Below are positions 1 to 64,000 of a DNA stretch of 64,000 nt, piece by piece (within the stretch, counting starts at the first letter, position 1; each line of letters starts with the position of its first letter). Both the position numbers and the translations under genes were made by a program. The stretch spans positions 62,001 through 126,000 of the forward strand of contig NW_026992302.1 of NCBI RefSeq assembly GCF_028769735.1. The letters run 5' to 3'. The notes beneath the pieces were generated by a model. It searched no databases. It saw nothing but the letters and a program-made list of their open reading frames with translations, and was not told the origin of the DNA. Origin of the DNA: Zonotrichia leucophrys gambelii (taxonomy: Eukaryota; Chordata; Aves; Passeriformes; Passerellidae).

Positions 1-291
1 GTGGGACACATGCCAGGTGAGATGGACAGGTGAGTTCAACAGGTGAGACACAGGTGAGATACAGGTGAGCCAGGTGAGCCAGGTCAGGGACAGGTCAGGG
101 ACAGGTCAGGGACAGGTCAGGGACAGGTGAGTGGCTGTGGCTCAGGTGGGATTCCCCAGGTGTGACCCAGGTGAGATTGCCTGCCCTAGGTGTGACCCAG
201 GTGTGTTCATCTATCTCAGGTGTAACCCAGGTGTGTCTCAGGTGAGGTTACCTGTCTCAGGTGTGTCCCAGGTGTGTCCCAGGTGTGTTAC
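1..291. repeat. Minisatellite, caggtgag/caggtgtgt type
   Basis: BCKDK intron sequence downstream of exon 6. It is built from 10-14 bp units such as caggtgagac and caggtgtgtcc. No exon is seen. Confidence 0.85.
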
Positions 292-761
292 CTGTATGTG
301 TCTCCGGCACTCCCTCAGCCCCTCTGCCAGCAGCGTGTGTGTAACACAGGTGTGTGTGGGTGTGTCCCAGGTGTGTTTATCTATCCCAGGTGTGTGTTAC
401 CTGTCCCAGGTGTGTCCCAGGTGTGTTACCTGTCCCAGGTGTGTCAGTTACCTGTATGTGTCTCCGGCACTCCCTCAGCCCCTCCGCCAGCAGCGTGTGT
501 GTAACACAGGTGTATCCCAGGTGTGTGTTACCTGTCCCAGGTGTGTCCCAGGTGTGTCCCAGGTGTGTCCCAGGTGTATCTCAGTTACCTGTATGTGTCT
601 CCGGCACTCCCTCAGCCCCTCCGCCAGCAGCGTGTGTGTAACACAGGTGTGTGTGTGTAACACAGGTGTGTGTGGGTATGTCCCAGGTGTGTCAGTTACC
701 TGTCCCAGGTGTGTTACCTGTATGTGTCTCCGGCACTCCCTCAGCCCCTCCGCCAGCAGTG
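292..761 (-). repeat. Four extra copies of the BCKDK exon 6 donor half
   Basis: Copies lie at about 292-335, 452-496, 589-632 and 718-761. Each reproduces the 3' end of exon 6 (LRECRRHIQ codons) with an intact CAG/GTAAC donor. They are separated by caggtgtgt-type 10-12 bp repeats. None has the 5' half or an acceptor. Confidence 0.93.
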
Positions 762-882
762 TGTGTGTAACACAGGTGTATCCCAGGTGTGTTTATCTAA
801 CACAGGTGTGTGTTACCTGTCCCAGGTGTGTCAGTTACCTGTCCCAGGTGTGTCCCAGGTGTATCTCAGGTGTGTCAGTTAC

Positions 883-1002
883 CTGTATGTGTCTCCGGCA
901 CTCCCTCAGCCCCTCCGCCAGCAGCGTCACCACGTCCTTGTGATCCTCCAGCAGCTGCCGCAGCAACGCGCAGTACTGGGACTCGTCACTGTGGGACTGG
1001 AT
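883..1002 (-). CDS. BCKDK: BCKDK exon 6, embedded in a minisatellite made of its own edges
   Basis: This 120-nt phase 0-0 exon encodes 40 residues, [20 protein letters not shown] through RECRRHIQ, matching human [20 protein letters not shown] through ESRKHIE. The acceptor CAG is at 1003-1005 and the donor GTAAC at 882-878. The first 42 nt recur seven times to the right (transcriptionally upstream) and the last 44 or so recur four times to the left. Only the central 30-40 nt are unique, which fixes this copy as the complete exon. Confidence 0.95.
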
Positions 1003-4000
1003 CTGCACAGGTGAGATACGGACAGGTGTGACACTGACAGGTGTGACAGGTGTGACACACACAGCAACGCGCAGTACTGGGACTCGTCACTGTGGGACTG
1101 GATCTGCACAGGTGAGACACAGACAGGTGAGAGACAGGTGTGACACAGGTGTGACACACACAGCAACGCGCAGTACTGGGACTCGTCACTGTGGGACTGG
1201 ATCTGAACAGGTGAGACAGGTAACAGGTAACAGGTGTGACAGGTGTGACAGGTGTGACACACACAGCAACGCGCAGTACTGGGACTCGTCACTGTGGGAC
1301 TGGATCTGCACAGGTGAGACAGGTAACAGGTGAGAGACAGGTGTGAGACACACACAGCAACGCGCAGTACTGGGACTCGTCAGTGTGAGACTGGATCTAC
1401 AGGTGTGACAGGTGTGACACAGGTGAGACACAGGTGAGACACAGGTGTGACACAGGTGTGACAGGTGAGACACTGACAGGTGTGACAGGTGTGACACACA
1501 CAGCAACGCGCAGTACTGGGACTCGTCACTGTGGGACTGGATCTACAGGTGAGAGACAGACAGGTGTGACACTGACAGGTGTGACACTGACAGGTGTGAC
1601 AGGTGAGACAGACACAGCAACGCACAGTACTGGGACTCATCACTGTGAGACTGGATCTGAGACAGGTAACAGGTAACAGGTGAGACACTGACAGGTGTGA
1701 CAGGTGTGACACACACAGCAACGCGCAGTACTGGGACTCGTCACTGTGGGACTGGATCTGCACAGGTGAGACACAGGTGTGACAGGTGAGACACAGGTGA
1801 GAGACAGGTGAGAGACAGGTGAGAAACAGGTGATGGACAGGTGAGAGACAGGTGAGACACAGGTGAGAAACAGGTGATGGACAGGTGAGAGACAGGTGAG
1901 ACACAGGTGAGAGACAGGTAAGAGACAGGAGAAATGGACAGGTGTGACACAGGTGTGACACAGGTGTGACACAGGTGTGACAGGTGTGACACAGGTGTGA
2001 CACAGGTGTGCCCAGGTGTGTTTTTACCCCCCCCACAGGTGTGTGCCAGGTTATACCAGGTCAGAGCCCAGCTGTGCCCAGGTGCCCCCAGGTGTATTTT
2101 GGGTGTATCCCAGGTGTATCCCAGGTGTATTTCGGGTGTATTTTTGGGTGTATTTTGGGTGTGTTTTACATTTATTTTGGGTGTATTTTGGGTGCATTTT
2201 GGGTGTATTTTTGGGTGTATTTTTGGGTGTATTTTTGGGTGTGTTTTACATTTACTTTGGGTGATTTTTGGGTGTATTTTGGATGTATTTGCGGTTTGGT
2301 TTTGGGTGTCTTTCAGGTGTATTTTTGTATTTTTACATATTATATTAATATAATATATTTATATATTTATATAATATATATTTAATATTTATATATATAT
2401 ATTTCAATATTTTGTATTTTTGGCTGTGTTTTGGGTGTATCTCAGGTGTATTTTGGGTGCATTTTTGGTGTGTTTTGGATGTATTTTTGGGTGTATTTTT
2501 GGTGTATTTCGGGCGTATTTTTGGGTGCATTTTGGGAGTGTTTTGGGTGTATTTCAGGCGTATTTTTGGGTGTATTTTGGGTGATTTTTGGGTGTATTTT
2601 TGGGTGTATTTTGGGTGTATTTTACATTTATTTTGGGTGTATTTTTGGGTGTATTTTGGGTGTATTTTTGGGTGTTTTTTGGGTGTATTTTTTGGTGTAT
2701 TTTGGGTGTTTTTTGGGTGTATTTTGGGTATATCCCAGGTGTGTTTTGGGGTGTATTTTGGGTGTATTTTGGGTGTATTTTTGGTCTATTTTAGGTGTAT
2801 CTCAGCTGTAATTTTAGGTGTATTTTGGGTGTATTTTGGGTGTATTTTTTGGTGTATTTTGGGTGTATCCCAGGTGTGTTTTGGGGTGTATTTTGGGTGT
2901 ATTTTGGGTGTATTTTTGGGTGTGTTTTACATTTATTTTGGGTGATTTTGGGGTGTATTTTGGATGTATTTTTGGGTGTATTTTGGGTGTACTTTGGGTG
3001 TATTTTTGGGTGTATTTTACATTTATTTCGGGTGTATTTTGGGTGTATCCCAGGTGTGTTTTGGGGTGTATTTTGGGTGTATTTTTTGGTGTATTTTGGG
3101 TGTATTTTGGCCATATCCCAGGTGTGTTTTGGGTGTATCTTAAATGTATTTTTGGTGTATTTTGGGTGTATTTTTGGGTCTTTTTTGGGTGTATTTTTGG
3201 GTGTATTTTGGGTGTATTTTTGGGTATATTTTGGGTGTGTTTTACATTTATTTTGGGTGTATTTTGGGTGTATTTTTGGGTGTATTTTGGGTGTACTTTG
3301 GGTGTATTTTACATTTATTTCGGGTCTATTTTGGGTGTATTTTACGTTTATTTCGGGTGTATTTTGGGTGTATTTTTGGGTGTATTTTACATTTATTTTG
3401 GGTGTATTTTGGGTGTATTTTTGGGTGTATTTTGGGTGTATTTTACATTTATTTTGGGTGTATTTTGGGTGTATTTTTGGGTGTTTTTTGGGTGTATTTT
3501 AGGTGTATCCCAGGTGTATTTTGGGTGTATTCTGGGTGTGTTTTGGGTGTATTTTGGGTGTTTTTGTCACTCACCGGGGGGAAGTCGCTCAGTTTCTGGA
3601 AGGCCCGGATGTACAGCTCGTGCTGGGGGGAGGGGAGAGAGAGAAAAAATCAGGAAATTCCGGAAAATTCCAGGGAAATTTTGGGGAATTTTGAGGTTTT
3701 GGGGATTCTTGGGATTCCCCCTAAAATATCTGGAAATTTTCAGGATTTTTGGGGGAATTTTTTTGAATTCTTGGGAATTTTTGAGCATTTTTTTTTATTT
3801 TTTCAGACTGTTTTTTTCCGGAATTTTTTTTTCTTTTAATTTTGGGGATTTTGGGATTCCCTTAAAATTCTCGGGAACATTTTTCAGATCATCTTTGGGG
3901 CAATTTTAGAATTTTTTTGGGATTTTTTTTTTTACCTTTAAATTTTTTTCGGAATTTTGGGAACGCTGGGAATTCCCAACAATCCCTGGTGTGATTTTGG

Positions 4001-10000: not shown

Positions 10001-10250
10001 GTAAATTTGGGGCGGGGTCTCCCCGTGTCTAAGTTAATTTGGGGAGGGGTCTCACCCTGTCGGCCGCAGCGTCAATGGCGGGCTGGTGGTAGAAGGAGGT
10101 GACGGCCTTGCAGCGCTCCCGGGCCAGGTCCGGGGGGGTTTGGTCGGAGGCGCCGCGGGCGGGGGGCACGCGGGGGGGCACGCGGGGGGGCACGAGGGAG
10201 GCCCCGCCCCCAGACCCCCGCAGACCCCCCCCCAAAACGCGCCCCAGCAT
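883..10250 (-). CDS. BCKDK: BCKDK, 5' part of coding region (five exons, partial gene)
   Basis: Branched-chain alpha-ketoacid dehydrogenase kinase is a mitochondrial matrix kinase that phosphorylates and inactivates the BCKDH complex in valine, leucine and isoleucine breakdown. The coding join on the minus strand is 10250-10056, 8332-8264, 5620-5510, 3622-3575 and 1002-883, giving 181 residues. All junctions are phase 0 with AG/GT borders. The product follows human BCKDK closely: [18 protein letters not shown], then [19 protein letters not shown], then the [15 protein letters not shown] segment, [16 protein letters not shown] and the [15 protein letters not shown] segment. This is the N-terminal helical (alpha-ketoacid dehydrogenase kinase) domain. 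The GHKL ATP-binding domain would be encoded left of position 1. Gene identity is near certain. VKORC1 lies upstream in the same orientation. Confidence 0.95.
1003..2036. repeat. Minisatellite with seven extra copies of the BCKDK exon 6 acceptor half
   Basis: The 10-12 bp units are of the type caggtgtgaca and caggtgagaca. Partial exon copies are at 1062-1103, 1161-1202, 1264-1305, 1355-1396, 1501-1542, 1615-1656 and 1716-1757. Each carries the first 42 nt of exon 6 on the minus strand with an AG acceptor at its border. From 1758 to 2036 only the short unit remains. Confidence 0.93.
2037..3569. repeat. gggtgtatttt minisatellite, BCKDK intron 5
   Basis: About 1.5 kb of 10-13 bp units of the type gggtgtatttt, with interspersed tttacattta and cccaggtgt variants. 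It is interrupted at 2330-2405 by an AT-only stretch of tatata/aatata words. It lies between BCKDK exons 5 and 6. Reading frames across it are repeat artefacts. Confidence 0.9.
3575..3622 (-). CDS. BCKDK: BCKDK exon 5 (48 nt)
   Basis: This short exon encodes [16 protein letters not shown] (human has [16 protein letters not shown]). The acceptor CAG is at 3623-3625, preceded by a C-rich tract, and the donor GTGAG is at 3574-3570. It is single copy, although 1.5 kb of minisatellite lies directly downstream. Confidence 0.95.
3640..5500. repeat. T/G-rich tandem repeat, BCKDK intron 4
   Basis: Imperfect units of roughly 130-200 bp share the words ttttaattttggggatttt, cttaaaattc, cagatcatctttggggca and runs of 8-15 T. 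About nine to ten units are visible. No exon is seen. Confidence 0.85.
5510..5620 (-). CDS. BCKDK: BCKDK exon 4
   Basis: This 111-nt phase 0-0 exon encodes 37 residues from [18 protein letters not shown] to CNPTILHV, a highly conserved stretch of the kinase N-terminal domain. The acceptor CAG is at 5621-5623 and the donor GTGAG at 5509-5505. Confidence 0.96.
5630..7480. repeat. accccaaattctggaggtttt repeat, BCKDK intron 3
   Basis: Tandem and interspersed units of 30-35 bp alternate aaaattttgaggtttttacc, ccaaattctggaggttttac and catttttttttaaagtttc. They fill the intron between exons 3 and 4. No exon is seen. Confidence 0.88.
7481..8258. repeat. Roughly 120-150 bp tandem repeat, BCKDK intron 3
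   Basis: Five to six imperfect units share aaaatttgacctcccccaac, aattcagggaaaaatcccc and caaattttggtgcaattttt. The array ends immediately at the donor of BCKDK exon 3. Confidence 0.88.
8264..8332 (-). CDS. BCKDK: BCKDK exon 3
   Basis: This 69-nt phase 0-0 exon encodes [19 protein letters not shown] followed by SHIL, nearly identical to human BCKDK. The acceptor CAG is at 8333-8335 and the donor GTGAG at 8263-8259. No exon-edge copies are seen next to it. Confidence 0.95.
8340..8680. repeat. aaaaatggtcacaaaatcccc repeat, BCKDK intron 2
   Basis: Units of about 40-60 bp are built on ccaaaaatggtcacaaaa and tcccccaaaaaaggcc. No exon is seen. Confidence 0.8.
8681..10050 (-). repeat. Roughly 160 bp tandem repeat with eight copies of the BCKDK exon 2 donor half
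   Basis: Units combine ccccaaatcc/tgacccaaaatg stretches, gtaaatttggggcggggtct and ggggaggggtctcaccct. The last word is the donor edge of BCKDK exon 2. Diverged donor-half copies begin near 8741, 8919, 9085, 9252, 9376, 9554, 9721 and 9872, all keeping ctcac (GTGAG on the minus strand) followed by a degenerate version of the codons for AIDAAAD. Confidence 0.9.
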
Positions 10251-10253
10251 CTC
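10056..10253 (-). CDS. BCKDK: BCKDK exon 2: start codon and mitochondrial presequence
   Basis: The acceptor CAG is at 10254-10256, the exon opens GAG-ATG, and the ATG is at 10250-10248. The donor GTGAG is at 10055-10051. It encodes 65 residues. The first 35 are rich in Arg, Gly, Pro and Val with no acidic residue, as expected of a mitochondrial targeting sequence, and contain a direct RVPP RVPP repeat from a duplicated short coding unit. The mature kinase begins near [14 protein letters not shown]. Both edges of this exon are copied many times in the flanking introns. Confidence 0.93.
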
Positions 10254-10259
10254 CTGTAA

Positions 10260-12470
10260 TGGTGGGGAGGGGAAGGAAAGGGTTAATGGGGTGAGGAACA
10301 CAAAATCTGCAAAATTCCACCCAAAAATCCACCCAAAAACCTCAAAAATCCACCCAAAATTCCACCCAAAAACCTCGAAAATCCACCTAAAAAACCCCAA
10401 AATTCATCCAAAAATCTCCCTCAAAAAACCCCAAAACTCCACCCAAAAATCCACCCAAACACCCAAAAAATCCACCCAAAAATCCACCCAAAAACCCCAA
10501 AAATTCCACCCAAAAATCCACCCCAAAACGCGCCCCAGCATCTCCTGTGTGGGGAGGAAAGGGTTAATGGGGTGAGACAGCCAAAATCTGCAAAATTCCA
10601 CCCAAAAAACCCCCAAAATTCACTAAAAATTCCACCCAAAAATCCCCCAAAACCCCACCCAAAAAACCCCAAAATCCACCCAAACACCCAAAAAATCCAC
10701 CCAAAAATCCACCCAAAAATCCCCAAAATTCACTCAAAAATCCACCCCAAAAACTCCAAAAATTCCACCCCAAAAATTCCAAAATTCACCCAAAAATCCA
10801 CCCCAAAAATCCCCCCCAGAACGCGCCCCAGCATCTCCTGCAATGGGGACAGGAAAGGGTTAATGGGGTGAGACAGCCAAAATCTGCAAAAACCCAGCCA
10901 AAAAAACCCAAAAATCCACCCAAAAACCTCAAAAATCCACCCAAAAATCCACCAAATTTGCCCCAAAAATCCACCCAAAAATCCACCCAAAAACCCCAAA
11001 ATCCCACCCCAAAATCCACCCAAAAATCCCAAAAATCCACCCAAAAATCCACCCAAAAAACCCCAAAATTCACTCAAAAATCCACCCAAAAAACCCAAAA
11101 ATCCACCCAAAAATCCACCCAAAAATCCACCAAAAACTCCACACAAATCCACCCAAAAATCCCACCCAAAAAAAACCCAAAATCCACCCAAAAATCCACC
11201 TAAAAAAACCAAAAAATCCACCCAAAAACCCCAAAAATCCACCCAAAAAAACCAAAAATTCACCCAAAAATCCCCCCAAAAAACCCCAAAATTCACCCAA
11301 AATTTCACCCAAAAATCCACCCAAAAACCCCAAAAGTCCCACCACAAAAACTCCAAAATTCACCCAAAAATCCACCCAAAAAACCCCAAAATTCACTCAA
11401 AAATCCACCCAAAAAAAAAACAAAATTCACGCAAAAATCCACCCAAAAAAACCCCAAAAATTCACTCAAAAATCCACCCAAAAATCCACCCAAAAACCTC
11501 AAAAATCCACCCAAAAACCCCAAAAATCCACTCAAATACCCCAAAAATCCCACCCCAAAAAAACCCAAAAATCCACCCCAAAAATCCCACCACAAAAACT
11601 CCAAAATTCACCCAAAAATCCACCCAAAAAACCCCAAAAATCCACCCAAAAACCTCAAAAATCCCACCCCAAAAACCCCAAAAATCCACCCAAAAATCCA
11701 CCCAAAAATCCACCCAAAAAACCCCAAAATTCACTCAAAAATCTACCTAAAAAATCCCAAAAATCCACCCCAAAATTTCCCCCCAAAACGCGCCCCAGCA
11801 TCTCCTGTATGGGGGACAGGAAAGGGTTAATGGGGTGAGGAACCCAAAAACCCCAAAAATCCACCCAAAAATATCAAAAATCCACCCAAAAATCCACCCA
11901 AAAAATCCCAAAATTCACCCAAAAATCCACCCAAAAAACCCCAAAAATCCACCCAAAATTCCACCCAAAAACCCCAAAAATCCCCCCAAAAAACCCAAAA
12001 TTCACCCAAAAATCCACCCAAAAAAACCCCAAAATTCACCCAAAAATCCACCCAAAAAACCCCAAAAATCCACCCAAAAATCCATTTAAAAACCTCAAAA
12101 ATCCACCCAAAAACCCCAAAAATCCACTCAAATACCCCAAAAATCCCACCCCAAAAAACCCAAAAATCCACCCAAAAATCTACCTAAAAAACCCAAAAAA
12201 TCCACACAAAAACCCCAAAAATCCACCCAAAAAACCAAAAAATCCACCCAAAAATCCCCCCAAAAACCCCCAAAATCCACCCAAAATTCCACCCAAAAAA
12301 CCCCAAAAATCCACCCAAAAATCCCCCCCAAAAACCCCAAAATTCACCCAAAAATCCCCCCCAAAAACCCCAAAAATTCACCCAAAACCCCCAAAAATCC
12401 ACCCAAAAAACCATAAAAATCCCACCCCCATCTCCTGCATGGGGGCAAGGAAAGGGTTAATAGGGAAGGG
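10260..12470. repeat. aaaaatccaccc minisatellite with copies of the BCKDK exon 2 acceptor and start codon
   Basis: Most of the tract is a 10-14 bp unit, aaaatccaccca. Copies of the exon 2 upstream edge, including acceptor, GAG-ATG start and the next codons, occur near 10523-10580, 10818-10875 and 11783-11835. A shorter copy near 12428-12470 keeps the ATG but not the following codons. All also carry the upstream aaagggttaatggggt word. Confidence 0.9.
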
Positions 12471-14580: not shown

Positions 14581-14589
14581 GTGAGGGGG

Positions 14590-28204: not shown

Positions 28205-28262
28205 CTCAAGGAGCAAATCCTGAGAACCGGCCGGGACCTTTTTCCCCCCGAGGGCCCCAAAA
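28205..28262 (+). pseudogene. Second short fragment of PAGR1 exon 4
   Basis: About 55 nt match exon 4 from GAGCAAATCCTGAGAACCGG to GAGGGCCCC. It marks the junction between two repeat families. Confidence 0.8.
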
Positions 28263-42000: not shown

Positions 42001-45000
42001 CCCTCCCAGTCCATCCCAGTTTATCCCAGTCCATCCCAGTTTACCCCAGTCCCTCCCAGTTTATCCCAGTCCCTCCCAGTCCATCCCAGTCCCTCCCAGT
42101 CCATCCCAGTCCCCTCCCAGTCCCTCCCAGTCCCTCCCAGTTTATCCCAGTTCATCCCAGTTCTCACCCTGGTTGCGGATGGGCTGTCCCAGTCCCTCCC
42201 AGTCCCTCCCAGTCCCTCCCAGTCCCATCCCAGTCCATCCCAGTTTATCCCAGTCTCACCCTGGTTGCAGATGGGCTGTCCCAGTCCCTCCCAGTCCCTC
42301 CCAGTCCCTCCCAGTCCTCCCAGTCCCTCCCAGTCCCTCCCAGTTTATCCCAGTCCCTCCCAGTCCCTCCCAGTCCCTCCCAGTCCCTCCCAGTTTATCC
42401 CAGTTTATCCCAGTCCCTCCCAGTTTATCCCAGTCCCTCCCAGTCCCTCCCAGTTTATCCCAGTCCATCCCAGCCCCTCCCAATCCCCTCCCAGTCCCTC
42501 CCAGTCCCTCCCAGTCCCTCCCAGTCCCTCCCAGTTTATCCCAGTTTATCCCAGTTTGTCCCAGTCTCACCCTGGTTGCGGATGGGCTGTCCCTGGCCCT
42601 GGCCCGGGCTCAGCGTCCCCAGGGCCACCAACAGAGCCACGGCCGCGACCTGGGGGGGGTTTGGGGCAAATTCGGGGGGGTTGGGGCAAATTCGGGGGGT
42701 TTGGGGCAAATTCGGGGGAATTTTGGGGAATTTTTGAGGAAATTTGGGGGAAATTTTGAGGAAATTTGGGGGGAAAATTTATGGGGGGATTTGGGGTTAA
42801 TTTTGCGGAAATTTGGGGGGTTTTGGGTCAATTTGGGGGAAATTTTGGGGGGAAATTTTGGGGGTTCCTGAAGGGAATTTTGGGGGGATTTTTGAGGATT
42901 TTGGGGGATTTTTGAGGAAATTTTGGGGGAATTTTGAGAGATTTTTGGGGGAATTCAGGAGGATTTTTGGGGAAATTTTGGGGGAATTTTGAGAGATTTT
43001 TGGGGAAATTTATGGGGGGATTTGGGGTTAATTTGAGTCAATTTGGGGGAAATTTCGAGGGTTCCTGAAGGGAATTTTGGGGGGATTTTTGAGGATTTTT
43101 TGGGGGAATATTGAGGAAATTTGGGGGAATTTTGAGAGATTTTAGGGGGAATTTTGAGAGATTTTGGGGGAAATTTATGGGGGGATTTGGGGTTAATTTG
43201 AGTCAATTTTGGGTGAAATTTGGGGGGAGATTTTGGGGGTTCCTGAAGGGAATTTTGGGGGAATTCAGGAGGATTTTTGAGGAAATTTGGGGGAAATTTT
43301 GAGAGATTTTGGGGGGAATTTTGAGAAATTTTTTGGGGAAATTTATGGGGGGATTTGGGGTTAATTTGAGTCAATTTGGGGAAATTTGGGGGGAAATTTT
43401 GGGGGTTCCTGAAGGGAATTTTGGGGGGAATTCTGGAGGATTTTGGGGGGATTTTTGAGGAAATTTGGGGGGAATTTTGAGAGATTTTTGGGGTAAATTT
43501 AGGGGGGGATTTGGGGTTAATTTGAGTCAATTTGGGGGAAATTTTGAAGGTTCCTGAAGGGAATTTTGGGGGGATTTTTGAGGAATTTTGGGGGAATTTT
43601 GAGAGATTTTTGGGGGAAATTTATGGGGGGATTTGGGGTTAATTTGAGTCAATTTTGGGGGAAATTTGGGGGGAAATTTTGGGGGTTCCTGAAGGGAATT
43701 TTGAGGGAATTCTGGAGAATTTTGGGGAATTTTGAGGAAATTTGGGGGAAATTTTGAGAGATTTTGGGGGAATTTTGAGAGATTTTCGGGGAAATTTATG
43801 GGGGGAATTGGGGTTAATTGGAGTCAATTTTGGAGAAATGTGGGGGGAGATTTTGGGGGTTCCTGAAGGGAATTTTGGGGGGAATTCTGGAGGATTTTTG
43901 AGAGATTTTTGGGGGAAATTTATGGGGGGATTTGGGGTTAATTTGGGGGAAATTTGGGGGGTTTTGGGTCAATTTGGGGGAAATTTGGGGGGAGATTTTG
44001 GGGGTTCCTGAAGGGAATTTTGGGGGGAATTCTGGAGGATTTTGGGGGATTTTTGAGGAAATTTGGGGGAATTTTGAGAGATTTTTGGGGGAAATTTATG
44101 GGGGGATTTGGGGTTAATTTGGGGAAAATTTGGGGGGTTCCTGAGGGGAATTTTGGGGGAATTCTGGAGGATTTTGGGGGGATTTTTGAGGAAATTTGGG
44201 GGGAATTTTGAGAGATTTTTGGGGGAAATTTATGGGGGGATTTGGGGTGAATTTGGAGGATTTTGGGGCCTTTTTTGGGTGGAATTTGGGGGCTTTTTTT
44301 GGGGTGAATTAGTGGGATTTTAGGTAATTTAGGAAGTTTTTTTGCGGGGGAATTTGGGATTAATTCGGGCGATTTTTGGGGGGTTTTTGGGATTAATTTG
44401 GAGAATTTTGGGGCCTTTTTGGGGGAATTTTGGGGGGTTTTTTTTGGGGTGAATTAGTGGGATTTTAGGTAATTTAGGGAAGCTTTTGGGGGGGAATTTG
44501 GGATTAATTCGGGGAATTTTTGGGGGGATTTTGGTTTTTTTTGGGGGGGAATTTGGTGGAATTTTGGGGCCTTTTTGGGGGAATTTTGTTTTTTTTTGGG
44601 GGGGTGAATTAGTGGGATTTTAGGTAATTCAGGAAGTTTTTTTGGAGGAAATTTGGGATTAATTCGGGGATTTTGGGGTGAATTTGGAGGATTTTGGGGC
44701 ATTTTTGGGGTTTTTTTTGGGGTGAATTAGTGGGATTTTAGGTAATTCAGGGAGTTTTTTTGGGGGGAATTTGGGATTAATTGGGGCTATTTTTGGGGTG
44801 GAATTTTGGGGCTTTTTTTGGGGTGAATTAATGGGATTTTAGGTAATTTTGGGGAAGTTTTTTTGGGGGGATTTTTGGGTGAATTTGGGGGATTTTGGGG
44901 CCTTTTTGGGGGGAATTTTGGGGTTTTTTTTGGGGTTAATTAGTGGGATTTTAGGTAATTTAGGGAAGTTTTTTTGGGGGGAATTTGGGATTAATTCGGG

Positions 45001-53000: not shown

Positions 53001-53255
53001 CGCTGGGATGTACAATGGGATCGGGCTGCCGACGCCGCGGGGCAGCGGCACCAACGGCTACGTCCAGCGCAACCTCTCGGCCCTGCGGCCCAAGAAAGGG
53101 GGGGCGGGCGGGGACCCCCCCCCCGGCGAGGAGGAGCTGAAACGTCTCGAGGCCGCCCTGGCCAAGAAACCCAACGCCGACATCCTCGACCACCAGCGCA
53201 AGAGGAGGGTGGAGCTGAAATGCCTGGAGCTGGCCGAGCTCATGGAGGAGCAGGG
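53001..53255 (+). CDS. SRRM2: SRRM2 exon 2: start codon and first half of cwf21 domain
   Basis: The acceptor CAG is at 52998-53000, the ATG at 53008 and the donor GG/GTGAG at 53255/53256. It encodes 82 full codons. The acceptor-plus-ATG edge is present eleven more times upstream, but only this copy continues into GLPTPRGSGTNGY. Confidence 0.96.
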
Positions 53256-56200
53256 GTGAGTCAGAAAAATCAGAAAAAATCAGCCCAAAAATGGGTTAAA
53301 ACAACCCCAAAATGGCCTGGAAAAAACAACATAAAATACCAAAAAATTGGCCCAAAAATAGCCCAAAACACCCAGGAAAAACCAACATAAAATAGCCCAA
53401 GATGGCCCCAAAAAACCCAAAATTAGCCCCAAAAATGGCCTGAAACAACCCCAAAATAACCTGGAAAAACCAACATAAAATAGCCCAAGAGGGCCCCAAA
53501 AATGCCCCAAAATCCCCTGGAAGAAGAAGCCCAAAATACCCAGAAATAGCCCCAAAAATAGCCCCAAACACCCCAAAAATACCCTGGAAAAACCAACATA
53601 AAATAGCCCAAGATGGCCCCAAAAATAGCCCCAAACACCCCAAAAATACCCTGGAAAAAAGAGTCTGAAATACCAAAAATTCGGCCCAAAAATAGCCCAA
53701 AACACCCTGGAAAAACCAACATAAAATACCCCAAGATGGCCCCAAAAAACCCAAAAATTAGCCCCAAAAATAACCCCAAATACCCCAAAAATACCCTGGA
53801 AAAACCAACATAAAATACCCCAAGATGGCCCCAAAAACAGCCCCAAAAAACCCAAAATTAGCCCCAAAAATAGCCCCAAACACCCCAAAAATACCCTGGA
53901 AAGACCAACTTAAAATACCCCAAGATGGCCCCAAAAAACCAAAGATTAGCCCCAAAAATATCCTGGAAAAACCAACGTAAAATACCAAAAAATTGGCCCA
54001 AAAATAGCCCCAAACACCCCAAAAATACCCTGGAAAAAAGAGTCCAAAATACCAAAAATCAGCCCCAAAAATAATTTCAAATATCCCAAAAATACCCTGA
54101 AAAACCAACATAAAATACCCCAAGATGGTGCCAAAAACAGCCCAAAAATCCCCTGGAAGAAGGAGCCCAAAAACCCAAAATTAGCCCCAAAAATAGCCCC
54201 AAACACCCCAAAAATACCCTGGAAAAACCAACATGAAATATCCAGAAATATCCTGAAATTCTCAGTGAAATGCCTGGAGCTGGCCGAGCTCATGGAGGAG
54301 CAGGGGTGAGGCCCGAAAATTGGGAAAATCGGCACAAAAAATGGGAAAAATCAGCCCAAAAATGGGAAAAATCAGCCCAAAAATGGGTTAAAACAACCCC
54401 AAAATACCCTGGAAAAAGTGACCAAATTTTTCCAAATTTCCCAATTTTTTTCCCAATTTTTTTCCCAATTTTTTCCCCCAAATTTCCCCATTTTTCCCTT
54501 TTTTCCCCATTTTTTCCCCCAAATTTCCCCTTTTTTTCCTTTTTTTCCCCAATTTTTTCCCCAATTTTTCCCTTTTTTTTCCCTTTTTTTCCCCTTTTTT
54601 TCCCAAATTTTCCCATTTTTCCCCCCAAATTTCCCCATTTTTTTCCCAATTTTTTCCCAACTTTTTTCCCAATTTTTCCCATTTTTCCCCCAAATTTCCC
54701 CATTTTTTTCCCAATTTTTCCCAATTTTTTTCCCAATTTTTTCCCATTTCCCCCCATTTTTTTCCCAATTTTTTCCCATTTTTCCCCCAAATTTCCCAAT
54801 TTTTTTCCCAATTTTTTCCCATTTTCCCCCCAAATTTCCCTTTTTTTTTTCCCTTTTTTTCCCAATTTTTCCCCCAAATTTCCCAATTTTTTCCCCAATT
54901 TTTTTCCCATTTTTTCCCCCAAATTTCCCATTTTTTTTCCATTTTCTCTCCTGTTTTTTCCCCATTTTCTCAGATTTTCCCAAATTTCCCATTTTTTTCC
55001 CAATTTTTTCCCATTTTTCCCCCCAAATTTCCCCATTTTTTTTTCCCTTTTTTTTCCCAATTTTTCTCCCCAAATTTTCCAATTTTCCCCCCAAAATTTC
55101 CCAATTTTTTTCCCTTTTTTTCCCAATTTTTTTCCCAATTTTTTCCCCAATTTTTCCCCAATTTTTCCCATTTTTTTTCCCAATTTTTTTCCAATTTTTT
55201 CCCATTTTTCCCCCCAAATTTCCCCATTTTTTTCCCCTTTTTTTCCCAATTTTTTCCCATTTTTCCCCCAAATTTCCCATTTTTTTCCCATTTTTTTCCC
55301 AATTTTTCCCACTTTTTCCCCCCAAATTTCCCATTTTTTTTTCCATTTTTTCTTTCACTTTCTCCCCAAATTTCCCATTTTTCCCATTTTCCCCAATTTT
55401 TTCCCCAATTTTTTCCCCAATTTTTCCATTTTTCCCCAAATTTCCTTTTCTCCCCAATTCCTTTTTTTTCCCATTTTTTCCCCAATTTTTCCCATTTTTC
55501 CCCCCAAGTTTCCCTTTTTTTTTGCCATTTTTCCCAATTTTTTTCCCAATTTTTTTCCCAATTTTTCCTTCCCCAAATTTCCCAATTTTTTTCCCATTTT
55601 TTCACCCAAATTTCCCCATTTTTTTTCCCATTTTTTTCCCAATTTTTCCCATTTTCCCCCAAATTTCCCATTTTTTTCCATTTTTTTCCCAATTTTTTCC
55701 CACTTTTTCCATTTTTTTCCCAATTTCCCATTTTTTCCCATTTTTCCCAATTTTTCCCATTTTTTCCCCCAAATTTCCCTTTTTTTTCCCTTTTTTTCCC
55801 AATTTTTTCCCATTTTTCCCCCAAATTTTCCCATTTTTTTCCCTTTTTTTTCCCAATTTTTTCCCATTTTTCCCCATTTTTCCCCCAAATTTCCCCAATT
55901 TTTTTCCCAATTTTTTTCCCAATTTTTCCCATTTTTCCCAAATTTCCCCATTTTTTTCCCCTTTTTTTTCCCATTTTTCCCCCAAATTTTCCCCTTTTTT
56001 TCCCTTTTTTTTCCCAATTTTTTCCCAATTTTTCCCAATTTTTTCCCATTTTTCTCCCAAATTTCCCCTTTTTTTTTCCCAATTTTTCCCATTTTTTCCC
56101 CCAAATTTCCCCATTTTTTCCCCTTTTTTTCCCATTTTTTTTCCCCAAATTTCCCCATTTTTTTTCCCCTTTTTTTTCCCCAATTTTTCCCATTTTTCTC

Positions 56201-59200
56201 CCAATTTTTTTCCCAATTTTTCCCCATTTTTTCCCCTTTTTTTCCAAATTTCCCCATTTTTTTCCCAATTTTCTTTCCCCAAATTTCCCTTTTTTTCCCT
56301 TTTTTCCCATTTTCCCAAATTTTCCCATTTTTTTTTTCCATTTTTTCCCCCATATTCGTCCCCATTTTCCCTTTTTTTCCCCAATTTTTTTCCCAATTTT
56401 TCCCCATTTCCCATTTTAATTTCCCTTTTTTCCCCTTTTTATTGCCCGATTGATTTGGCCCCAAATTCCGCATTTTTGTTGCAATGGATTTTTCGGCACA
56501 GAGCTCAAATTTCCCAGTTTTTGTATCCCTTAATTTTTTTAATTATTAATTACATTGTTATTAGCTTTTCGAGTATTGGGAGAGACGGGCAATTGGTGGC
56601 CAAAATCCGGAATTTTGGTGCTGAAAAGGAATTTTGGGCCGATTCCGAGAAAACTTGGTTTGGACCTTAATTACTGTAATTAATTAATTAATTAATTAGG
56701 TTGTTAATTAGTCTGGGTAATTGGGAGGGGTTTGGGGCCAAAAAATCCGGAATGTTTTTGGGTGAAAAATGGAATTTTTTGGGCGATTTAGGAGGGAAAT
56801 TTGGGTTTTTGGGATCATTAATCCCTGTGAAGTCATTAATTAGATTAATTATGATTAATTAGTCTTGGGTGATTGGGAAGGGATTTATGGGAAAAAAGGG
56901 AATTTTTAGGGCGAAAAAAGGATTTTTAGGGCGAAAAATGGAATTTTTTGGGAATTTTGAGAGGAAATTTGGGGTTTTTGGGATCATTAATCCCATGTGA
57001 AGTCATTAATTAGCTTAATTAGATTAATTAGCAGCTTATTAATTATTTCTGGGTAATTGGGAGCGGGTTTGGGGCCAAAAAAAACGGAGTTTTTAGGGCG
57101 AAAAATGGAATTTTTTGGGAATTTTGAGGGGAAATTTGGGGTTTTTGGGATCATTAATCCCATGTGAAGTCATTAATTAGATTAATTAGATTAATTAGCA
57201 GCTTGTTAATTAGTTCTGGGTAATTGGGAAGGGATTTATGGGGAAAAAAGGGAATTTTTAGGGCGAAAAATGGAATTTTTTGGGCAATTTGGGGGGAAAT
57301 TTGGGATTTTTGGGATCATTCATCCCATGTGAAGTCATTAATTAGCTTAATTAGCAGCTTGTTAATTAGTTGTGGGTAATTGGGAAGGGATTTATGGGGA
57401 AAAAAGGGAATTTTTAGGGCAAAAAATGGAATTTTTAGGGTGAAAAATGGAATTTTTTGGGGCAATTTGAGAGGAAATTTGGGGTTTTTGGGATCATTAA
57501 TCCCATGTGAAGTCATTAATTAGATTAATTAGCAGCTTGTTAATTAGTTCTGGGTAATTGGGAAGGGATTTATGGGGAAAAAAGGGAATTTTTAGGGTGA
57601 AAAATGGAATTTTTTGGGCAATTTCAGAGGAAATTTGGGGTTTTTTGGGATCATTAATCCCATGTGAAGTCATTAATTAGCTTAATTAGATTAATTAGCA
57701 GCTTGTTAATTAGTTGTGGGTAATTGGGAAGGGATTTATGGGAAAAAAGGGAATTTTTTGGGGGAAAAATGGAATTTTTTGGGCGATTTGAGAGGAAATT
57801 TGGGGTTTTTTGGGATCATTAATGCCATGTGAAGTCGTTAATTAGCTTAATTAGCAGCTTGTTAATTAGTTGTGGGTGATTGGGAAGGGATTTATGGGGG
57901 AAAAAAGGGAATTTTTTGGGCAAAAAAGGGAATTTTATGGGGAAAAAATGGAATTTTTTGGGAATTTTGAGGGGAAATTTGGGGTTTTTGGGATCATTCA
58001 TCCCACGTGAAGTCATTAATTAGATTAATTAGCAGCTTGTTAATTAGTTGTGGGTAATTGGGAAGGGATTTATGGGAAAAAAAGGGAATTTTTAGGGTGA
58101 AAAATGGGATTTTTGGGGTGATTCGAGTGAGAAAATCCAAATTTTTTGAGGGGAAAAAAAGGGATTTTTTGGGGGGGTTTTAATCAGAAAAAATTCATTT
58201 TTTTAATGGGAAAAAAAAAGAGATTTTTAAGGTGATTTGGGTGGGAAAATGCAAATTTTTTAGGGGAAAAAATGAGATTTTTTAGGAATTTTTAAACTGA
58301 AAAATTCCATTTTTTTGAGGGGAAAAAGGGATTTTTTTGGGGGTGTATTACACTGAAAAATTCCATTTTTTTGAGGGGAAAAAGGGATTTTTTTGGGGGC
58401 GTATTAAGGTGAAAAATTCCATTTTTTTGAGGGGAAAAAGGGAATTTTTTGGGGTAGCTGCAGGTGAAAAAAAAATGGGATATTGGGAGTGAAAAATGGA
58501 ATTTTTGAGTGAGAAAAACTGGGATTTAAAAGGGAAAAAAATGGATTTTTTGGGGGCGTATTAAGCTGAAAAATTCCATTTTTTGGAGTAAAAACCGGAT
58601 TTTTGCCGCGATTTTTGCGGGAATTTCGGGGTTTTTTGGCTGCTTGGCCTCTCTAAGTTTTGATTGAGGTATTTAATTAATTAATTATGCTAATTAGGGC
58701 CACGGAGACGCACCAGCAGGCCGAGGCTAACGAGCGCAAGAACGAGCGGCTCCGCGCCGCCTTCGGCATCAGCGACTCCTACGTGGACGGGAGCGCCTTC
58801 GACGCCGCCCGCAGGGCCAAGGAGGAGCCCCCCGAGGCGCCCAGGTAGCACCAAAAACACCAAAATTCACCCCAAAAATTTACCCCAAAATCACACAAAA
58901 ATCTCACAAAAATCCCACAAAAAAATCCCGAAAATTTGCCCCAAAAATCTCAAAAAATGACCCGAAAAATGCCCCAGAATCGACCCCAAAATTGTCCCCC
59001 CGAGGCGCCCAGGTGACCCCAAAAATACCAAAATTCACCCCAAAAAATCCCAAAAATTTACCCCAAAATCCCACAGAAATCTCAGAAAAATCTCACAAAA
59101 ATCCCACAAAAAATCCACAAAAAAACCGCAAAAATTTACCTAAAAATGACCCCAAAATCGTCCCCCCAAGCCGCCGAAAACGCTGAAATTCACCCCAAAA

Positions 59201-62200
59201 AATCCCGAAAATTTACCCCAAAATCCCACAAAAAATCCCACAAAAAATCCCCAAAAAAATCCCACAAAAAATCCCCAAAAAATGACCCCAAAAATCCCAA
59301 AAAATGACCCCAAAATCGTCCCCCCGAGGCGCCCAGGTAGCACCAAAAACACCAAAATTCACCCCAAAAATTTACCCCAAAATCCCACAAAAATCTCACA
59401 AAAATCCCACAAAAAATCCCACAAAAAATCCCAAAAATTTGCCCAAAAACGACCCCAAAAGCTCCAAGGAGGAGCCCCCCGAGGCGCCCAGGTGACCCCA
59501 AAAATACCAAAATTCACCCCAAAAAATCCCAGAAATTTACCCCAAAATCCCACAAAAATCTCACAAAAATCCCACAAAAAATCCCCAAAAAAATCCCAAA
59601 AATTTACCCAAAAATGACCGCAAAATCGTCCCCCCAAGCCGCCGAAAACGCTGAAATTCACCCCAAAAAATCCCAGAAATTTACCCCAAAATCCCACAAA
59701 AAACTCAGAAAAATCCCACAAAAAATCCCCCAAAAAATCACGAAAATTTACCCCAAAATCCCACAGAAATCTCACAAAAATCCCCCAAAAAATCCCGAAA
59801 ATTTAACCCAAAATCCCACAAAAAATCCCCAAAAACTTACCCTAAAAAATCCCAAAAATTTACCCCAAAATCCCACAAAAATCTCACAAAAAATCCCCCA
59901 AAAAACCCCCCCAAAAATCCCCCGAAATTCCCCATAAAATCCCCTCAAAATCCCTCAAACCTCCCCCTAAAATCCCCCCAAATTTCCCCAAAAATCCCAA
60001 AATTTTCCCCAAATTTTCCCAAAAAATTTTAATTTTTTCCCATTTTTCCCCTCCCAGCGCCGCCCCCGAGGAGCTGAGCTCCCGCTCGCCCTCCCCGAAG
60101 CAGAAAAAGAAGAAAAAGAAGAAGGATCGGGGCAGGTGAGGAAAATTTGGGATAAAATTTGGGAATTTTGGGAAAATTTGGGATTTTGGGAAAAATTTGG
60201 GAATTTTGGGAAAATTTTTGGGGGAGTTTTGGGGGAGTTTTGGGGTTTTTTGGGAAATTTTATTGGAATTTTTGAGGGATTTTTTGGGAATTTTTGAAGG
60301 GGGATTTTGGGTTTTTTTGGGTTTTTTTTTTGGTTTTTTTTGGGAATTTTTTGGGGTTTTTTTTGGAATTTTTAGGGAAGATTTTGGGAAAATTTTGGGG
60401 TGATTTGGGGGAGTTTTGGGGTTTTTTGGGGAATTTTTTTGGAATTTTTAAGGGGGAATTTTGGGTTTTTTCGGAATTTTTGGGGGTTTTTTTTGGGATT
60501 TTTTTGGGGTTTTTTTGGGAATTTTGAGGGAACATTTTGGGGAGTTTTTGGGGCTTTTGGATTTTTTGGGGGTTTTGGGTTTTTGGGTTTTTTTGGAATT
60601 TTTGAAGGGTTTTTTTGGGAATTTTGAGGGAAAATTTGGGATTTTTTTGGGAAATTTTTGGGGTTTTTGGGGTGATTTTTGGGGGAGTTTTGGGGTTTTT
60701 TTGGGATTTTTTGAGGGGGGATTTTGGGATTTTTTTGGAATTTTTGAGGGGTTTTTTGGCAATTTTAAGGGAAAATTTGGTTTTTTTGGGGAGTTTTTGG
60801 GGTGATTTTTGGGGGAGTTTTGGGGTTTTTTGGGGGTTTTTTTTTGGAATTTTTGAGGGGCAATTTTGGGTTTTTTTGAGGGGTTTTGGGTCATTTTTGG
60901 GAACTTTTTTGGGGTTTTTTGGGAATTTTGAGGGAAAATTTGGGGTTTTTTTTGGGAAAATTTTTGGGGGAGTTTTGGGGTTTTTTGGGGAATTTTTTTG
61001 GAATTTTTGAGGGGTTTTTGGGAATTTTGAGGGGAGATTTTGGGAAAATTTTGGGGTTTTTGGGGTGATTTTTGGGGGAGTTTTGGGGTTTTTTCGGGGG
61101 ATTTTTTTGGGAATTTTTGAGGGAAGATTTTGGGATTTTTTTTTGAAGTTTTGAGGGGTTTTTTGGGAATTTTGAGGGGAGATTTTGGGAAAATTTTGGG
61201 GTTTTTGGGGTGATTTTTGGGGGAGTTTTGGGTTTTTTTGGGGAATTTTTTTAGAATTTTTGAGGGGGAATTTTGGGTTTTTTTGGTATTTTTTTGGGTT
61301 TTTTTTGGGATTTTTTGGGTTTTTTTTGGGAATTTTTTGGGGTTTTTTTGGAATTTTGAGGGAAGATTTTGGGGAGTTTTTGGGGGAGTTTTGGGGTTTT
61401 TTGGGGATTTTTTTTGATTTTTTGGGAATTTTTGGGGGGATTTGGGGTTTTTTTTGGATTTTTTGGGGGGTTTTTTTGGAATTTTGAGGGAAAATTTTGG
61501 AGAAATTTTGGAAAATTTTTGGGGTGTTTTTGGGGGAGTTTTGGGGTTTTTTTGGGGTATTTTTTTGGAATTTTTGAGGGGGGATTTTGAGGGTTTTTTT
61601 GGAATTTTTGAGGGTTTTTTTGGGAATTTTGAGGGAAAATTTGGGGTTTTTTTGGGAAAATTTTGGGGTGATTTTTGGGGTTTTTTAGGCTTTTTTTGGA
61701 ATTTTTAAGGGGGAATTTTGGTTTTTTTTGGATTTTTTTGGGGGTTTTTTGGGGAATTTTTTGGGTTTTTTTTGGGATTTTTTGGGTTTTTTTTGGGATT
61801 TTTTTGGGTTTTTTTTTGGAATTTTGAGGGAAGATTTTGGGGAGTTTTTGGGGCTTTTGGATTTTTTGGGGGTTTTGGGTTTTTGGGGTGATTATTTGGG
61901 GTTTTTGGGGTGATTTTTGGGGGAGTTTTGGGGTTTTTGGGGGAATTTTTTGGGAATTTTTGAGGGATTTTTGGGAATTTTTGAGGGGGATTTTGGGATT
62001 TTTTTTTGGAATTTTGAGGGAAAATTTGGGGTTTTTTTGGGAAAATTTTTGGGGTTTTTGGGGTGATTTTGGGGGGAGTTTTGGGGTGATTTTTGGGGGA
62101 TTTTTTTGGGAATTTTGAGGGATTTTTAAAGGGGAGATTTTGGGGTTTTTTGGGTGGTTTTGTTGGGAGTTTTGGAAGAGGATTTTTGGGAATTTTGGGG

Positions 62201-63906
62201 GGATTTTTGGGAGGTTTGAGGTGAATTTTGGGAAATTTTGGGGTGATTTTTGGGGGGGTTTTGGCTTTTTTTTTTGAATTTGTGAGGTTTTTTGTGGGAA
62301 TTTTTCGGGGATTTGAGGTGGAATTTTGGGTGGAATTGGGAATTTCAGGAGGGAATTTTGGAGGAATTTTGGGTGGAATTTTGGAGTTTTTTGGGTGGAA
62401 TTTCAGGTGGATTTTAGAAAATTTCGTGTGAGAATTTAAAGAATTTAAGGGGAAAATTGGCAGATTTTGGGTGGAATTTGGATGACTTGAATTTTCTGTT
62501 GGAATTTCTGGTGGGATTTTTAATGCAATTTTTGGTGGAATTTGGGGGATTTCGGGTGGAATTTTTGGTAGAATTTTTGTCTTATTTTGGGTGGAATTTG
62601 AGGAATTTTAGATAAAATTTTGGGTAAAATTTGGTGAATTTCTGATGAATTTTTGGGTGAAACTTTGGGAATTTCAGGTGAAATTTTGGGTAAAACTTGA
62701 GGAATTTCAGATGAAATTTTGGGAAAAATTTGAGGAATTTCAGGTGAAATTTTGGGTGAAACTTTGGGAATTTCAGGTGAAATTTTGGGTAAAATTTGGG
62801 GAATTTCAGGTGAAATTTTGGATAAAATTTGGGGAATTTCAGGTGAAATTTTGGGTAAAATTTTGGGAATTTCAGGTGAAATTTTGGGTGAAACTTCAGG
62901 AATTTCAGGTGAAATTTTCAGTAGGATTTGAGTCTAATTTTGGCAGGAATTTAAAGATTTTCAGGTGAAATTTTGGCTAAAAATTGGGAAATTTCGGGTG
63001 AAATATTGGGTAAAATTTGGTGAATTTTAGGTGAAATTTTGGGTGAAACTTTATGAATTTGAGGTGAAATTTTCAGTAGGATTTGAGTCTGATTTTGGCA
63101 GGAATTTGGGAAATTTCAGGTGAAATTTTGGGTGAAATTTTGGGTGAATTTTTGGGAATTTCAGGTGAAATTTTGGGTAAAATTTGAGGAATTTCAGGTG
63201 AAATTTTGGGTAAAATTTGGGGAATTTCAGGTGAAATTTTGGATAAAAATTGGGAAATTTCGGGTGAAATTTTGGGTAAAATTTGAAAAATTTCAGATGA
63301 AATTTTGGGTAAAATTTGAGGAATTTTAGGTGAAATTTTGGGTGGAATTTCAGATGAAATTTTCAGTAGGATTTGAGTCTGATTTTGGCAGGAATTTGGG
63401 AAATTTCAGGTGAAATTTTGGGTAAAATTTTGGGAATTTCAGGTGAAATTTTGGGTAAAATTTGAGGAATTTCAGGTGAAATTTTCAGTAGGATTTGAGT
63501 CGAATTTTGGTTGGAATTTTGGGTGAAATTTGTGAAATTTTGGGTGAAATTCGTGCAATTTTGGGGTCTCCCATCCCGTTTTCACCCCCCAGGTCCGCCA
63601 GTCGCTCCGGGGAGAGGAAGAAGAGCAAGAAGAAGAAGCACAGGTGAGAGGGGGCGTGGCCAAACCGCGAGTGGGCGTGGCCACCCACCAAAGTGGGCGT
63701 GGCCAACCCTTAACACTCCGTGACCACCACCTAATATGGGAAAATGGGCGTGGCCTTTGAATAAAAATGGGCGTGGCCTCAAGGCAACACCACTTGGGTC
63801 AGGTAAAAGGGGCGTGGCTTAAAAATAAGGGGCGTGGCCTCGCTAAACCACGCCTCCTTTTTGCCCCTTCTAGGTCTGAATCGGAGGCCAAGAAGCGAAA
63901 GCACCG
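53008..63906 (+). CDS. SRRM2: SRRM2 (SRm300), 5' part of coding region
   Basis: SRRM2 is a large spliceosome-associated and nuclear-speckle scaffold protein with an N-terminal cwf21 domain and long RS-rich regions. The visible join is 53008-53255, 58698-58844, 60058-60135, 63593-63643 and 63874-63906, all phase 2 junctions with AG/GT borders. It reads MYNGIGLPTPRGSGTNGYVQ, then RLEAALAKKPNADILDHQRK and LKCLELAELMEEQG. It continues with THQQAEANERKNERLRAAFG, ISDSYVDGSAFDAARRAKEE, SPSPKQKKKKKKKDRGR, SGERKKSKKKKHR and SESEAKKRKHR, each matching human SRRM2 in order. The human segment YEEQQIQEKVATFRLMLLEK and what follows has no visible exon. The gene continues past 64000. Confidence 0.95.
53260..54265. 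repeat. aaaataccctggaaaaaccaac repeat, SRRM2 intron 2
   Basis: Units of 60-110 bp share ccctggaaaaaccaacataa, aataccccaagatggcccc and aaaattagccccaaaaatag. The exon missing from SRRM2 was looked for here and not found. Confidence 0.88.
54266..54306 (+). repeat. Copy of the SRRM2 exon 2 donor half
   Basis: About 40 nt identical to the end of exon 2 (tgaaatgcctggagctggcc to gaggagcaggg) with the GTGAGG donor, preceded by ctcag. Spliced after exon 2 it would shift the frame, so it is not a clean cassette. Confidence 0.88.
54418..56450. repeat. 2 kb almost G-free ttcccaatttttttcccc tract, SRRM2 intron 2
   Basis: Short units of cccaattttttt and ccccaaatttccc. The plus strand has only a handful of G in 2 kb. 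This leaves all frames open on both strands for hundreds of codons (low-complexity FPIF and GKKWEK translations). Confidence 0.93.
56660..58120. repeat. Roughly 170 bp repeat rich in TTAATTAG, SRRM2 intron 2
   Basis: About eight units share gggatcattaatcccatgtg, aagtcattaattag, attaattagcagcttgttaa and gggaagggatttatgggg. TAATTA cores occur several times per unit. The acceptor context of the next SRRM2 exon (atgctaattag) resembles the unit. 58120-58640 continues as gaggggaaaaagggatttt units. Confidence 0.92.
58698..58844 (+). CDS. SRRM2: SRRM2 internal exon (THQQAEANERKNERLRAAFG)
   Basis: The acceptor aattag lies at 58692-58697 in an AT-rich, TAATTA-containing context with no pyrimidine tract. 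The donor AG/GTAGCA is at 58844/58845, an atypical GTAGCA. The phase is 2-2, so it joins exon 2 in frame even without the missing exon. Confidence 0.94.
58845..60050 (+). repeat. aaaatcccacaaaaaatccc repeat with SRRM2 exon donor halves
   Basis: Units of 130-160 bp of cccacaaaaatctcacaaaa type carry copies of the preceding exon's donor edge, ccccccgaggcgcccaggt, near 58997, 59320 and 59474 (the last includes aaggaggagc). Degraded versions (ccccccaagccgccgaaaac) are near 59162 and 59630. The intact copies keep AG/GT. Confidence 0.9.
60058..60135 (+). CDS. SRRM2: SRRM2 exon with poly-Lys
   Basis: It encodes SAAPEELSSRSPSPKQKKKK then KKKDRG(R); human has SSSSRSPTPKQKKKKKKKDR. The acceptor is CCCAG at 60053-60057 and the donor GTGAGG at 60136. 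Confidence 0.94.
60136..62450. repeat. gggaattttgagggaaaatttgg repeats, SRRM2 intron
   Basis: Imperfect units of 60-180 bp share ggtgatttttgggggagttt, tggaatttttgagggg and gggaattttgagggaagatt. No exon is seen. Confidence 0.87.
62451..63560 (+). repeat. aatttcaggtgaaattttgggtaaaa minisatellite, SRRM2 intron
   Basis: Units of about 30-33 bp. Each typical unit contains TTTCAG directly followed by GTGAAA, and many also ggGTAAAA. Larger units are marked by tcagtaggatttgagtctga. It runs to just before the exon at 63593. Confidence 0.9.
63593..63643 (+). CDS. SRRM2: SRRM2 exon (SASRSGERKKSKKKKH)
   Basis: 51 nt, phase 2-2, encoding (R)SASRSGERKKSKKKKH(R). The acceptor is CCCCCCAG at 63585-63592 and the donor GTGAG at 63644. 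Confidence 0.92.
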
Positions 63907-64000
63907 GTAAGGAGGGGGGGGCGGGGAAAATGCAAATTAGGATAGGTGGGTGTGGTCACAGGGTGGGTGTGGTCACAGGGTGGGTGTGGTCACCGGGTGG
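63644..64000. repeat. gggcgtggcc and gtgggtgtggtcacag repeats at the right edge
   Basis: 63644-63860 has about eight GGGCGTGGC (KLF/Sp1-like) words in the short intron. 63940-64000 begins a 17-bp ggtgggtgtggtcacag array that runs off the window. Confidence 0.8.
63874..63906 (+). CDS. SRRM2: SRRM2 micro-exon (SESEAKKRKH)
   Basis: 33 nt encoding (R)SESEAKKRKH(R), matching human SESESKKRKHR. The acceptor is CCTTCTAG at 63866-63873 and the donor GTAAGG at 63907. Confidence 0.92.

Follow-up and report, generated by a model that had tools for sequence, protein, structure and literature searches.

The stretch of DNA analysed here, hereafter "the window", comprises 64,000 nucleotides (positions 62001-126000) of a 166,073-bp contig of the white-crowned sparrow Zonotrichia leucophrys gambelii. 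Twenty-four exons of the five genes BCKDK (-), VKORC1 (-), PAGR1 (+), MFAP4 (-) and SRRM2 (+) could be placed in it, and the introns of these genes harbour additional copies of exon edges together with their splice sites. Gene identities were assigned from the translations plus matches to solved structures and Pfam, that of PAGR1 via the Pfam family PAXIP1_C only. The BCKDK translation is 100% identical to the sparrow protein P0001 across the 147 residues searched, and the PAGR1 translation is 100% identical to the sparrow protein P0121 across all 190 residues. The remaining BCKDK coding exons were found beyond the window, leading to a conceptual protein of 411 amino acids which is identical to P0001. 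Tandem repeats cover 0.834 of the window and 0.790 of the contig. This repeat load fits a dot chromosome; the 166-kb contig itself is not placed on a chromosome. The exons concerned and the copies of their edges are the following:

883..1002, minus strand: BCKDK exon e6, origin of two arrays, placed by sequence and protein match
292..759, minus strand: four donor-half copies of BCKDK e6 (292-336, 452-496, 589-633, 718-759), GT kept in 4/4
1062..1757, minus strand: seven acceptor-half copies of BCKDK e6, 42 exon bases each, one common join, Ser-His as in the window exon
10056..10253, minus strand: BCKDK exon e2, with start codon
8740..9899, minus strand: eight diverged donor-half copies of BCKDK e2, GTGAGA kept in 8/8
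10521..12434, minus strand: four acceptor-half copies of BCKDK e2, AG kept in 4/4, no more than 6 exon bases in the farthest
22322..22632, plus strand: PAGR1 exon e2, donor AAAA/GTAAAA (slash at the exon border), 5' boundary inferred
22685..22813, plus strand: PAGR1 e2 copy 1, potential in-frame cassette exon of 129 nt, TTTCAG acceptor, donor as in e2, stop-free
23328..23456, plus strand: PAGR1 e2 copy 2, potential in-frame cassette exon of 129 nt
26566..26744, plus strand: PAGR1 terminal exon e4, with stop codon
27270..27346, plus strand: copy of the 3' end of PAGR1 including the stop codon, a place where the gene has no splice site
28209..28258, plus strand: partial copy of PAGR1 e4
34016..34198, minus strand: MFAP4 exon e5
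34308..36582, minus strand: 17 acceptor-half copies of MFAP4 e5, 28-36 exon bases, AG kept in 17/17, three join types
37660..37756, minus strand: MFAP4 exon e4
37108..37529, minus strand: two donor-half copies of MFAP4 e4 (37108-37150, 37487-37529)
38607..38767, minus strand: MFAP4 exon e3
38259..38556, minus strand: four donor-half copies of MFAP4 e3
42571..42649, minus strand: MFAP4 exon e2
40554..42282, minus strand: five donor-half copies of MFAP4 e2, GTGAGA kept in 5/5, each sharing the Asn codon with the window exon
53001..53255, plus strand: SRRM2 exon e2, with start codon
50469..52791, plus strand: 11 acceptor-half copies of SRRM2 e2, ATG in each
54266..54305, plus strand: one donor-half copy of SRRM2 e2
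58698..58844, plus strand: SRRM2 exon e3
58997..59491, plus strand: three donor-half copies of SRRM2 e3, two of them with only about 17 exon bases and below the BLAST cut-off

A screen of the window with its 24 exons by blastn-short, in the setting of the chicken study considered below (matches of at least 20 nt and more than 35 bits), reveals 59 extra exon-edge copies, 59/59 of which lie on the strand of the gene. Shuffling the introns 20 times produced 0 matches, the best one reaching 32.2 bits. An earlier note on this DNA had reported such copies next to exons of BCKDK, PAGR1, MFAP4 and SRRM2, which is confirmed; it had spoken of five genes, of which these four carry copies while VKORC1 (3 exons) shows no edge copies in the screen. 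All copies upstream of their exon (38/38) begin at exon base 1, and 19/21 downstream copies extend exactly to the final base of their exon; the remaining two are partial alignments at 22691 and 28209. Acceptor halves thus lie upstream and donor halves downstream, just as the note had it.

The screen was extended to the contig minus its last 73 bases, using 30 exons (those of the genes of the window plus the rest of BCKDK) and the threshold of 42.1 bits applied by Hron et al. Here, 81 copies are found in adjacent introns or flanks, all on the same strand (81/81), and 0 elsewhere on the contig. The exon border is reached within 3 nt by 50/52 upstream and 26/29 downstream copies. The copied part of the exon measures 22-123 nt (median 36) and never exceeds 44% of its exon. 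Involved are 14/30 exons, which is not a fair rate because the window was chosen. The range from 35 to 42.1 bits holds six more matches: one is a true copy of MFAP4 e2, the other five are remote and of low complexity, three lying on the opposite strand. BCKDK exons beyond the window carry copies as well (e7 donor 7, e9 acceptor 9, e10 donor 2, e11 acceptor 5 plus one weak). The copies are imperfect and, in most arrays, differ from one another. How local they are is illustrated by a 27-mer spanning the SRRM2 e2 acceptor, all 12 exact matches of which in the 1.12-Gb genome lie on this contig. Three PDK loci, i.e. BCKDK paralogues (contigs C1, C9 and C28, 20 kb each), yielded 0 extra copies for the 24 exon segments found there by tblastn, the control being limited to these paralogues and segments; tandem repeats cover 0.3%, 0.4% and 28% of them, respectively, compared to 79% of the present contig.

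The earlier note knew of no chromosome-wide description of such a pattern. It has, however, already been described in chicken, where Hron et al. in 2026 named it "exon stuttering" (PMC12954441, cited here and below from part of its text; 115 genes, 236 introns, 190 on dot chromosomes). What they describe, a lateral part of a coding exon plus its splice site present as imperfect direct repeats in the adjacent intron, with the source at most one base from the exon border in more than 90% of cases and isolated between exons, agrees with what is found here: direct copies in adjacent introns or flanks, comprising border and splice site, forming imperfect repeats and absent from the BCKDK paralogues screened. 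Even the median length of the copied exon part is the same (36 nt). Intron length in chicken varies strongly between individuals, local repeat expansions in other birds are mentioned too, and the mechanism is left open (PMC12954441). While that study screened chicken, ours concerns a songbird contig with 30 hand-annotated exons and adds, compared to the text consulted, join overlaps, dated copies and in-frame cassettes; the words "microhomology" and "RNA-seq" do not occur in its main text. Our search of the literature from 2020 on found no further paper on stuttering besides PMC12954441. A phenomenon known from chicken is thereby carried over to a songbird, and its open mechanism becomes testable.

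Indication of this mechanism comes from the joins between exon edge and intron repeat. We considered joins with at least 15 exon bases in the arrays of the window, the BCKDK e2 donor copies being left out. For 17 of 21 distinct join types the intron source is identifiable. The mean overlap of exon and source at these joins is 3.9 nt, compared to 1.6 nt at other positions of the same exon, and the individual overlap exceeds the control mean in 16/17 cases (combined P about 1e-5). Such short overlaps fit slippage or microhomology-mediated duplication and point to a local process driven by microhomology. With their direct orientation, one-sided geometry and locality they also agree with the earlier suggestion of repeated tandem duplication across exon borders. 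We regard the arrays, with a probability of roughly 85%, as a songbird case of avian exon stuttering, likely originating from local tandem duplications which join the interior of an exon to an intron repeat via a few shared bases.

The duplications themselves would arise by replication slippage or microhomology-mediated repair, and slippage or unequal exchange among the intron repeats may later spread their products. A selective filter presumably acts on them: it would spare duplications in which the real exon stays whole and the additional half ends up in the intron, since a solitary acceptor upstream or donor downstream seldom meets a partner with which an exon could be defined, while duplications within or across a whole exon would be removed by selection. 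The one-sided geometry would thus reflect that an intact exon must survive such events. Over time exons would seed anew, so that each copy bears the exon state of its birth date, and PAGR1 exon 2 would illustrate how a copy that gains a partner site by chance turns into a candidate new exon.

The splice dinucleotide is kept in every anchored copy, both in the window (39/39 AG, 29/29 GT) and on the whole contig (54/54 AG, 38/38 GT); short or diverged copies scoring below the BLAST threshold are counted here, some of them anchored by eye, and the two copies of the PAGR1 gene end are left out. The earlier note had asserted this conservation for all arrays except the PAGR1 3' end, and it was right on both counts: that site is the end of the gene and has no splice site, for which reason we rejected the idea of a missed splice donor. 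With a simple weight matrix, 34/39 acceptor and 26/29 donor copies of the window (contig: 43/54 and 34/38) score at most 1 bit below the true site, and in 21/29 window donor copies the 9-mer is identical to that of the true donor. A partner site within 400 nt that would yield an in-frame, stop-free cassette exists for only 2/68 window copies, both in PAGR1 intron 2. For the two start-codon exons no frame was required in this test, and next to their acceptor copies no donor above 1.2 bits turned up. Most of the copied sites are, hence, predicted from sequence to be inert. The copied edge is absent from one BCKDK and one PAGR1 protein of this sparrow (both "isoform X2", the only isoforms examined). 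The claim that splice sites are multiplied here thus holds for their consensus, while that of decoys "at scale" may go too far, partners being scarce.

Selection might nevertheless have kept the copied sites as functional decoys which tune splicing or serve as spares. The dinucleotide is conserved to 100% in the 92 copies, as compared with 95% (acceptor) and 91% (donor) for 20 exon bases in ungapped alignment and only 78% and 79%, respectively, for the next 12 intron bases, and the consensus of most window copies is as strong as the true site. The copies are, however, related to each other and do not represent 92 independent trials, young star-like arrays yield the same pattern without selection, and 66/68 window copies have no in-frame partner. 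We consider functional decoys very improbable.

If, as the stuttering interpretation implies, copies preserve the exon as it was when they arose, they can be dated wherever the exon differs from other songbirds at a residue. Codon 64 of BCKDK encodes Asp in the window and Glu in 3/4 passerine relatives compared (Asp in Manacus). In the e2 donor copies the four farthest from the exon have GAG (Glu) at this position, the next three, like the exon, GAC (Asp) and the nearest AAG (Lys). In the case of BCKDK e11, the five nearer copies (one with a 1-base deletion) show Asp like the exon while the farthest shows Glu, which is found in 5/5 readable passerines. Old states accordingly lie farther out than new ones in both arrays holding the two states. 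Both MFAP4 e4 copies encode Arg, as do 4/4 songbird relatives, where the exon encodes Lys; this codon lies at the join, which makes the observation weaker. In contrast, all BCKDK e6 acceptor copies (7/7) carry the exon's Ser-His, where passerine relatives have Val-Arg or Gly-Gln, and all MFAP4 e2 copies (5/5) its Asn, where both relatives covering that stretch have Pro. Since these copies share the exon's own residues, unlike the relatives, the two arrays look younger. Of the 47 amino-acid differences between copy and exon, 24 reflect a change in the copy and 6 an old state which the copy has retained, while 12 count as unresolved and 5 as unclear; those of PAGR1 are mostly unresolved. The sequence DVVAER of the BCKDK e2 copies was considered as an ancestral state shared with mammals and rejected: bird proteins mostly contain IDAAAEK or IDAAAER, so that the valines are novelties of the copies, the Glu alone being old. 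Substitutions in the exon serve as time marks for its copies, so that sequence can tell in which order and how fast seeding proceeded.

An edge might also have been captured just once per array, with only the captured copy being amplified thereafter. In the BCKDK e6 acceptor array a single join is common to all copies (7/7), and variants are shared among copies in BCKDK e9, e11 and the e2 donor array. Elsewhere several joins occur within one array (13, 3 and 1 copies in MFAP4 e5; 8, 2 and 1 in SRRM2 e2; several also in the BCKDK e2 acceptor array), and the presence of old and new exon states side by side likewise argues against a single capture. In 7/8 arrays the average copy resembles the exon more than it does the other copies, as slow evolution of the exon would also predict. 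Such self-spreading arrays are a serious possibility, albeit one to which we give clearly less than even odds.

The two copies of PAGR1 e2 deserve separate consideration. Each is preceded by TTTCAG, measures 129 nt, is free of stop codons, retains the exon donor and has the right phase at both ends; judged from these features, the prediction is that either could serve as an additional coding exon. Sparrow PAGR1 protein P0121 shows no edge copy; as it begins upstream of the inferred e2 acceptor, the 5' boundary of this exon is less sure than its donor. The PAGR1 model of Passerculus sandwichensis (P0125) contains two copies of the edge as coding sequence, and the join of one of them, K-GFGTLPLRNV, is the same at the protein level as the would-be K-AFGTLPLRNV of the window. 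The model of Camarhynchus parvulus (P0122), which is consistent with the PAGR1 exon 1-exon 2 join used here, also has two edge copies, though with a different join. Passerculus shares its family with Zonotrichia, Camarhynchus does not. In Lonchura striata MFAP4 (P0279) the e5 donor edge, single in the window, is duplicated. These three proteins are database gene models, and the copies are known there from the models alone.

The duplicated edges in these birds bear on the question of whether misassembled repeats have merely multiplied edges which are single in the bird. Tandem repeat makes up about 79% of the contig, and bird DNA rich in GC and repeats is described as difficult to sequence and assemble (PMC12954441, PMC6792250). 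Yet the copies vary in substitutions, spacing and join type in most arrays, duplicated PAGR1 or MFAP4 edges recur in Passerculus, Camarhynchus and Lonchura with the same protein-level join in Passerculus, and the repeat structure of introns in one chicken gene, PHF8, was reportedly confirmed in raw nanopore reads (PMC12954441). An assembly artefact is, to our mind, very unlikely.

Several observations nonetheless weigh against exon stuttering by repeated, microhomology-driven duplication. The arrays are known here from the assembly of one individual. Four of the 21 joins have no source, one of 17 falls below its control, and join types inside one array are not independent. Identity to the exon shows a significant gradient with distance in 0/8 arrays (rho -0.47 to +0.56), so that it is BCKDK e2 and e11, together with silent changes in e9, which speak for outward growth; the nearest e2 copy with its Lys is odd, however, and the nearest e9 copy breaks the order. 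The polarity at e11 is that of passerines, 13 other readable bird proteins being divided into 7 with Asp and 6 with Glu. Gene conversion between exon and copy could mimic old and young ages alike. Finally, whether partner sites are depleted next to acceptor copies varies with the cut-off chosen (14 vs 37 expected, 10 vs 21, 10 vs 7).

As a broader and tentative conjecture, which we hold to be possible rather than probable, exons on bird dot chromosomes may keep shedding their edges, the arrays forming dated records of former coding sequence, with an occasional shed edge becoming an in-frame exon as PAGR1 suggests. PAGR1 would then exemplify concretely how a stuttered edge may turn into a new coding exon. 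Copied edges can also enter the gene models of such contigs as false or new exons.

In the human 6-16 gene a tandem repeat at an exon edge reportedly multiplies donor sites. That case concerns a single human gene and a short unit, whereas in the sparrow many exons and both kinds of edge are affected. Intron gain by tandem genomic duplication (the topic of PMC4974935) reportedly involves splice signals as well, but that process makes a new intron while the sparrow duplicate sits inside an existing one and the exon remains whole. The introns of GC-rich avian genes, too, are filled with tandem repeats; unlike in the sparrow contig, exon-edge copies are not mentioned in the passages seen (PMC6792250).

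Internal repeats in database proteins were examined by an off-diagonal scan, of which just the high-scoring pairs in P0122, P0125 and P0279 are used here. Among the matches listed, repeats appear for BCKDK in 5/25 birds and 0/95 others, for MFAP4 in 2/14 and 4/106 and for PAGR1 in 14/18 and 66/102, respectively, the PAGR1 counts being uninformative because they are swamped by low complexity. Large internal duplications are present in the non-bird proteins P0299 (Pelodiscus MFAP4) and P0142 (Tupaia PAGR1) and could be due to annotation or real. In Taeniopygia BCKDK (P0003, P0006) units like GGGTPQNPPWG are repeated N-terminally in the presequence region, possibly as an in-exon repeat expansion.

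As regards SRRM2, a tblastn search with a human peptide found no counterpart in 53256-58697 of the human segment between the exons called e2 and e3 here; since the two are in the same phase, an intervening exon may be lost or too diverged. An SRRM2 intron array at window positions 62600-63560 consists of units like TTTCAGGTGAAATTTT, so that the intron repeat itself holds many donor-like CAGGTGA strings on the sense strand. The intron arrays are, moreover, extremely strand-asymmetric, with a GC skew of +0.88 at window positions 44001-46000 and of -0.79 at 54001-56000.

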